Of a stretch of 33,638 nt of DNA, positions 5,039 to 6,862 are shown one piece after another. The DNA is from an uncultured Clostridia bacterium (GTDB lineage: Bacteria > Bacillota > Clostridia > Oscillospirales > CAG-272). A program made the position numbers and the translations under genes. The stretch is from NCBI GenBank assembly GCA_946404035.1, contig CAMJCC010000008.1, positions 1 through 33,638 on the forward strand. The letters run 5' to 3'. Below the pieces are notes generated by a model. It ran no database searches. It worked only from the letters and a program-made list of their open reading frames with translations, and was not told where the DNA came from. How positions within the stretch are numbered: the first letter of the stretch is position 1; every line of letters starts with the position of its first letter.

Positions 5039-5216
5039 TCCTTCGGTATTTTGGTATATTCTATGCACCGCCCCCCCGGAGTAGAACGAAGGAATGAAGT
5101 CGCCGCGCAAGCGCGGCTAATGAAGTCGGCAGCGCATTCCGCGCTGCCTAATGAAGGCGGTGCAAGCGCCGTGAAGCGTTTGCCGCGAGCGGCAAACGTG
5201 ACGGGGCGTGGAGAAC
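5039..5216. repeat. Hairpin array A (modular hairpins with conserved TAATGAAG/GTGAAG linkers)
   Basis: Stems GCCGCG/CGCGGC (5102-5117), GGCAGCGC/GCGCTGCC (5128-5148), CGGTG/CGCCG (5158-5171), CGTTTGCCG/CGGCAAACG (5177-5198), separated by TAATGAAGTC, TAATGAAG, TGAAG; preceded by TCCTTCG...CGAAGGA; ends GGCGTGGAGAAC. Confidence 0.75.
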
Positions 5217-6424: not shown

Positions 6425-6453
6425 ATTATAGCGTACCGTGCCGGATTTGTCAA
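6425..6453 (-). promoter_or_regulatory. Consensus SigA-type promoter of rplJ-rplL
   Basis: Minus strand TTGACA-17 nt-TATAAT (-35 at 6448-6453, -10 at 6425-6430). Confidence 0.9.
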
Positions 6454-6656
6454 GAGGTTTTTTATATAAAGATGAAAAATTGCTCCGGTCGAGCAAAAAG
6501 GCACGGTACGCTGTGATGTGTTGCGCCGGGCGCAACGTGATGTTGCTCTTTCGGAGCAGTGATGTTTTTACCGTCCGCAAGCGGACGGCAAAAGTGAAGT
6601 GTTGACCGCTCCTTTCGGCGCGGTCAACGTTTTGTTTTACAAAAGGCGGGGAGAAC
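6430..6656. repeat. Hairpin array B (modular hairpins with conserved GTGATGT/GTGAAGT linkers)
   Basis: 13-bp IR 6430-6442/6500-6512; stems GTTGCGC/GCGCAAC, TGCTC/GAGCA, TTTTaCCGTCCG/CGGACGGcAAAA, GTTGACCGC/GCGGTCAAC, TTTTG/CAAAA; 7-nt linkers at 6513-6519, 6537-6543, 6559-6565, 6594-6600; ends GGCGGGGAGAAC. Confidence 0.8.
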
Positions 6657-6715
6657 TGTTGAAGGCAGGGCTATAGAACCAAGGCGCGGCGGAGCGCGGA
6701 GCGAGCCGTGCCGAT

Positions 6716-6758
6716 CAAAAAACCGAGAGGGCGCACGATCACGATCGTGCGCCCTCTC
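6716..6758 (-). terminator. Terminator downstream of methyltransferase gene
   Basis: Perfect 16-bp stem GAGAGGGCGCACGATC/GATCGTGCGCCCTCTC, minus-strand TTTTTT tract. Confidence 0.85.
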
Positions 6759-6862
6759 AAACAATGCGAATTGTTTTCAGATAGTGAACCTTTTTTCAAA
6801 AAATGATGAAGTTCTTTGCCCCGCTTTCTTACAAGAAAGCGGGCGCACCCCTCGTTCTCCCC

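Follow-up and report, generated by a model that had tools for sequence, protein, structure and literature searches.

Cyanobacterial genomes carry heptanucleotide direct repeats known as STRR, and Nostoc reportedly contains small dispersed repeats (SDR4/5/6), said to have been described by Elhai et al. in Genome Research in 2008 as very small hairpins with compensatory changes that are often embedded in tandem heptamers or minitransposons and that form families of conserved 21-27-nt sequences. The arrays reported here differ from SDRs of this description in that nearly all of their hairpins are unique and in that strings of three to five hairpins alternate regularly with a heptamer. Beggiatoaceae and Cyanobacteria carry the heptanucleotide direct repeat TAACTGA, and among long simple repeats with units of 5-11 nt, units of 7 nt are the commonest (PMC4679880, citing Mrazek 2007 for the latter). 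Such repeats resemble the arrays as intergenic, repeated 7-nt words. However, the words are adjacent there, whereas in the arrays each pair of words is split by a palindrome of 9-34 nt. REPs are tagged palindromes (PMC3733652), and REPs and REPINs are likewise intergenic and dispersed (PMC3733652, PMC3116915), but there the palindrome is conserved in sequence and bears a GTAG/CGTC tag, whereas the palindromes of the arrays are free and the heptamers are of several kinds (GTGAAGT, GTTATGA, GCGATAT). REPs and REPINs also come with a RAYT gene, unlike the arrays of the array-rich genomes G000, G011, G016 and G021. With MITEs the arrays share that they are short, gene-free, dispersed and multi-copy (21-38 matches per genome, besides copies in phage contigs) and that the arms of their composite forms are inverted; however, these arms are strings of hairpins, and neither a target-site duplication (at phage copies) nor a parent transposase (Y1 or RVT_1 in the same four genomes) was found. 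In the literature searched there was no description of a heptamer-hairpin arrangement. The arrays represent a dispersed DNA repeat of a kind that is real, widespread and apparently undescribed; its nearest counterparts are MITEs, heptanucleotide repeats and the SDRs reported from Nostoc. We consider it probable, though well short of certain, that the array studied here, array B, represents a single copy of a MITE/REP-like DNA element, dispersed and non-autonomous, which we call the heptamer-hairpin element.

The stretch of DNA analysed (the window, 33,638 nt) is contig 8 of G000, a 1.74-Mb assembly in 132 contigs, and array B sits on it between the rplJL promoter and a putative rRNA methylase gene, with the L10 leader alongside. 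The four linkers and four stems reported in the initial annotation are all present where it had placed them, and on the + strand the array reads as linker 1 (GTGATGT, 6513-6519), hairpin 1 (GTTGCGC-CGG-GCGCAAC, 6520-6536), linker 2 (GTGATGT, 6537-6543), hairpin 2 (TGCTC-TTTCG-GAGCA, 6544-6558), linker 3 (GTGATGT, 6559-6565), hairpin 3 (TTTTaCCGTCCG-CAAG-CGGACGGcAAAA, 6566-6593), linker 4 (GTGAAGT, 6594-6600), hairpin 4 (GTTGACCGC-TCCTTTCGGC-GCGGTCAAC, 6601-6628) and a T-rich end module (GTTTTGTTTTACAAAAGGC, 6629-6647), the hairpins being flush with the 7-nt words. Both dispersed copies and the G024 ortholog have the stem of hairpin 1, hairpin 2 has the homologous form TGCTCC-TTC-GGAGCA in copies, and in hairpin 3, whose TTTTaCCGTCCG/CGGACGGcAAAA stem carries one A-C mismatch, six pairs show compensatory changes among family members. 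Hairpin 4 is a terminal module common to an array on contig 5 of G000 (L345) and to L426 and L427, and the T-rich end is identical in L345 and similar in L426, L427 and L439. An inverted-repeat search revealed a fifth, longer hairpin (6430-6512, + strand) that directly abuts linker 1 and encloses the promoter: its arms AGCGTACCGTGCC (6430-6442) and GGCACGGTACGCT (6500-6512) flank a 57-nt loop that contains the rplJL -35 box and an inner hairpin (6480-6496). The rplJL promoter is a consensus sigma-70 promoter, TTGACA-17-TATAAT, on the minus strand at 6425-6453, its -35 box being the reverse complement of 6448-6453.

Array B was recovered by a search for any repeated 7-mer around end-to-end hairpins, in which the linker was not preset. 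Arrays of at least three hairpins appeared in 0 of 400 Markov shuffles of the window and in none of 5000 shuffles of the intergenic stretch only, and the folding z-score of array B is -5.4. Rfam 15 holds no match to the array (none at E<=1 over 6425-6720), and in the neighbourhood only the adjacent L10 leader matches. The description of a modular, intergenic element whose stems conserve pairing rather than sequence, while its linkers conserve sequence, is upheld, and further arrays were found both in this genome and in related ones; no outcome that the initial annotation had named as refuting it occurred. Within the window, a second such array, array A (about 5090-5200, + strand), lies downstream of rplL with linkers TGAAGT/ATGAAG/GTGAAGC and is matched by the covariance model R1 at 5122-5205 (E 5.6e-7).

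The linker had been called invariant, which is nearly true inside an array, but across arrays it is one of several 7-nt words. A scan for any 7-nt linker, run on 446 kb of G000, 237 kb of G024 and, around known arrays, 34 kb of G021, returned GTGAAGT, GTGATGT, GTTATGA/GTGATGA, RTGAATT, KCGATAT and GTTATAT, with GTGAATT and GCGATAT among them; because the scan demanded seven-nucleotide words, the linker length is partly given by construction, and one or two of the listed arrays resemble chance coding matches (e.g. L341, ttctccg). Later loci add the word GTGATAT. Comparison of the paralogs array B and L343 suggests that linkers may have changed in concert; the detection rule constrains the within-array linker distance statistic, which is not taken as proof of concerted change.

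The modular element survives scrutiny as such, but it forms a family of dispersed DNA repeats rather than a single locus. On contig 4 of G000, a sister array shares three hairpins with array B, in identical order, but has linkers GTTATGA/GTGATGA, and a DNA search from it found more copies in three relatives. At E<=0.001, a covariance model built from six copies gave 21 matches each in G000 and G024 and 38 matches in G021; at E<=0.01 it gave 35 in G336, and other sampled members of the genus had 0-14. The E-values are rough, and the counts stand for related arrays rather than one strict subfamily, since the model also catches other heptamer classes. The pairs of the three hairpins in the B family covary: 14 cells carry double changes, where shuffles give 4.8 (0/500). 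Orthologs after one gene in G024 and G336 (L434, L438) differ in hairpin sequence while keeping the pairing. Altogether, 286 unique hairpins carry 140 unique stems, and several arrays are located at contig ends.

Arrays with three GTGAAGT words occur in 14 of 40 relatives, in which the reversed pattern is almost absent; across the class, 11 of 292 genomes have them. In the named genome collection the pattern also matches Streptomyces, Bacteroidales, Nostoc and others; among the matches listed, the spacers there are not hairpins, tracts of GTGAAGT at Nostoc, Wenzhouxiangella and Planctomycetes loci lack hairpins, and spacers that form hairpins come almost exclusively from assemblies of gut Clostridia, Oscillospiraceae and Christensenella. 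Composites, in which one array faces another across a core, are present in G016, G011 and many others, in the order (GTGAAGT hairpin)x3 GTGAAGT, core TAAGTTTGCCC, (hairpin ACTTCAC)x3, GGGCAAACTTAGTT and a further variable hairpin. The composite of G000 has the identical layout with the core TAAGTGTTCCGC/GCGGAACACTTA. Composites thus bear the heptamer on both strands (GTGAAGT...ACTTCAC), whereas array B has no inverted partner. Two composites lie in gene gaps of an IMG/VR siphophage contig (that behind L260), whose terminase, portal, capsid-like and tail genes were read from translations rather than by family search. Related phage contigs hold elements with a similar core, 28 nt of which match the phage composite at 93% (E 1e-4), and with hairpin-free arms in which heptamers stand directly next to each other, as in (ATTGACA)n. 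These pure-heptamer elements suggest that the linkers are units of tandem heptanucleotide repeats, which are a widespread class; the link rests on one 25-28-nt match and on layout. Heptamer-armed, gene-free elements were observed in several gene gaps of phage contigs (L389-L391, L398, L404-L406), several of them within less than 8 kb in L389, and the phage contig L396 carries at 9-200 a composite with the heptamer GCTAAAT/GCGAAAT.

Orthologous sites differ in occupancy. At the rplJ promoter, one arm of the AGCGTACCGTGCC/GGCACGGTACGCT hairpin is the promoter spacer and the other arm is its inverted copy. G024, whose rplJ product is 97% identical, has the orthologous stem AGCGTACCGCGCC/GGCGCGGTACGCT with a compensatory T-A to C-G change, and it keeps hairpin 1 but not the remaining hairpins of array B. 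G336 has the promoter-arm hairpin with one mismatch and, at array B's spot, an array with a different linker, ATATCGC, while G330 (rplJ product 84% identical) has neither a promoter hairpin arm nor an array there. Array B is thus exchanged more freely between relatives than the promoter-enclosing stem. The rplJ promoter and the L349 locus alike are empty in G330 and hold different arrays in sisters.

The spacers pair from end to end, strictly by Watson-Crick rules. In 269 unique GTGAAGT spacers, the four outer positions pair in 91, 90, 88 and 74% of cases, against 20-28% in 113 non-Clostridial spacers taken as control, and any Watson-Crick pair is accepted, as seen at position 2 of 11-nt spacers (TA 15, CG 15, GC 10, AT 6). 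The 391 array hairpins contain 18 G-T and 22 A-C mismatched pairs against 1673 Watson-Crick pairs, compared with 9 G-T, 1 A-C and 129 Watson-Crick pairs in 20 tRNA acceptor stems; the overall scarcity of mismatches in the arrays is partly due to hairpin selection, but the ratio of G-T to A-C is informative because that selection treats both alike. By simple ORF calls, arrays lie sense to co-directional neighbour genes in 31 cases and antisense in 27, and they occupy 31 convergent against 10 divergent gaps, the divergent ones being avoided. Since G-T pairs are rare and no commoner than A-C pairs, and since gene orientation is unbiased, the arrays appear to be DNA palindromes rather than an RNA fold, so that the choice between DNA and RNA that the initial annotation had left undecided leans towards DNA.

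A dispersed DNA element would accommodate these observations as follows. It contains no gene: 7-nt words follow one another head to tail, with a short perfect palindrome, arbitrary in sequence, between each word and the next, and in several families a core lies between two such series that face each other. Since neither a target-site duplication nor a clean empty/filled pair was obtained, we infer movement: dispersal, presence or absence between species and the phage copies suggest that copies move from one intergenic site to another and enter phage genomes, mobilised in trans by a putative activity. The reason for the pairing we infer as well: the heptamers would probably be a recognised or annealing sequence, and the palindromes would be structure-only spacers that form hairpins when the DNA is single-stranded. 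Units may be duplicated by slippage between direct heptamers, as suggested by 5 of 166 arrays in which adjacent hairpins are identical. Template switches that copy one arm onto the other, of which one case was seen, and/or selection for folding may restore or rewrite the palindromes. If this is right, gut Clostridia and their phages hold a large class of repeats that inherits only spacing, heptamer and folding, and that would account for some unannotated intergenic DNA and metagenome contig breaks. It may also reveal a new mobilising enzyme, and it would offer a natural system in which to ask whether DNA palindromes persist through selection for hairpins in single-stranded DNA or through template switching in replication.

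It is possible, if doubtful, that the hairpins are not selected at all and that slippage-prone heptamers together with template-switching in replication perfect imperfect palindromes, pairing being a by-product. Strict Watson-Crick pairing with no wobble asymmetry would fit this account, as would the related phage elements with pure heptamer arms and the history of one orthologous terminator locus. The hairpin there is CGACCGCGCA-GAAA-TGCGCGGTCG in G024 and G021, CGGGCTTGCA-GAAA-TGCGCGGTCG in G336 and CGGGCTTGCA-TTTC-TGCAAGCCCG in G000; the final 14 nt of the G000 form, loop included, reproduce CGGGCTTGCAGAAA exactly in reverse complement. The inversion of one arm plus loop from G336 to G000 is what a template switch would leave. 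However, loop inversion, which frequent template switching should produce, is not enriched in general: among hairpins that share a stem it was seen in 3 of 220, equal to reversed or complemented controls, and it was rejected as general proof of template switching. Thus, the template-switch route is possible but its commonness is not supported, and the hairpin-generating mechanism proposed earlier retains one clean case and loses the general test. Moreover, heptamers and hairpin order are conserved across dispersed copies and species, which argues against a mere by-product, and the hairpin-free GTGAAGT tracts of other phyla, among the matches listed, indicate that slippage alone does not make hairpins.

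A more elaborate scenario, which we regard as unlikely, is that a putative machinery recognises the heptamer and writes or maintains arbitrary palindromes between heptamers, by snap-back or template-switch synthesis coupled to mobilisation. Folding and spacing, not sequence, would then be inherited, and each heptamer class would have its own factor. It counts against the dispersed-element reading itself that no linked transposase or other mobilising gene was found when Y1 and RVT_1 domains were sought in G000, G011, G016 and G021. RVT_1 (PF00078) gave no match in these array-rich genomes, several assemblies being incomplete, and a reverse transcriptase was rejected as mobiliser on this ground. 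No target-site duplication was seen by eye at the phage copies, and empty sites in phage relatives were rejected for defining the ends because these relatives are too divergent.

It is still less probable that the arrays function as RNA, with transcribed hairpins and single-stranded linkers forming a terminator, a 3'-end protector or a protein-binding array akin to CsrA-titrating RNAs. The strong fold and the covariation of the B family would agree with such a role, and B-family copies often lie 0-15 nt after stop codons and have a T-rich end, so that some of them may act as transcript ends. However, the mismatch ratio, which is so different from that of tRNA stems, the balance of sense and antisense positions, the composites with the heptamer on both strands and the lack of an Rfam match all speak against it, and the RNA structure reading was rejected for want of a wobble excess and of an orientation bias. 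In some composite hairpins (L024, L015, L080) a tandem pyrimidine mismatch of the type TACTCGC..GCTCGTA is kept, possibly a recognised internal loop.

A REP/REPIN-type element mobilised by a RAYT (Y1 HUH) transposase, with the heptamer in place of the GTAG/CGTC tag, would explain the short tag directly 5' of palindromes and the intergenic dispersal but is very improbable, since Y1_Tnp (PF01797) does not track the arrays, having 0 matches in array-rich G000 (97.6% complete), G011, G016 and G021, several of these assemblies being incomplete, and being present in G005 and G012, both without strict GTGAAGT arrays, and since the palindromes are not conserved in sequence and several different 7-mers take the place of the tag. 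A CRISPR array was rejected because the repeats are only 7 nt long and the spacers are palindromic. The arrays are also found in the company of other repeats. In L031, L033 and L035, another repeat (GGGGTTCCCCGAA...) is inserted in the loop of a hairpin of a GTGAAGT array. A dispersed repeat, TGAAGTTCTTTGCCCCGCTTTCTTACAAGAAAGCGGGCG, adjoins array B at 6795-6850 of the window, and in G021, G024 and G336 the part of L343 that matches it recurs some 30 or more times.
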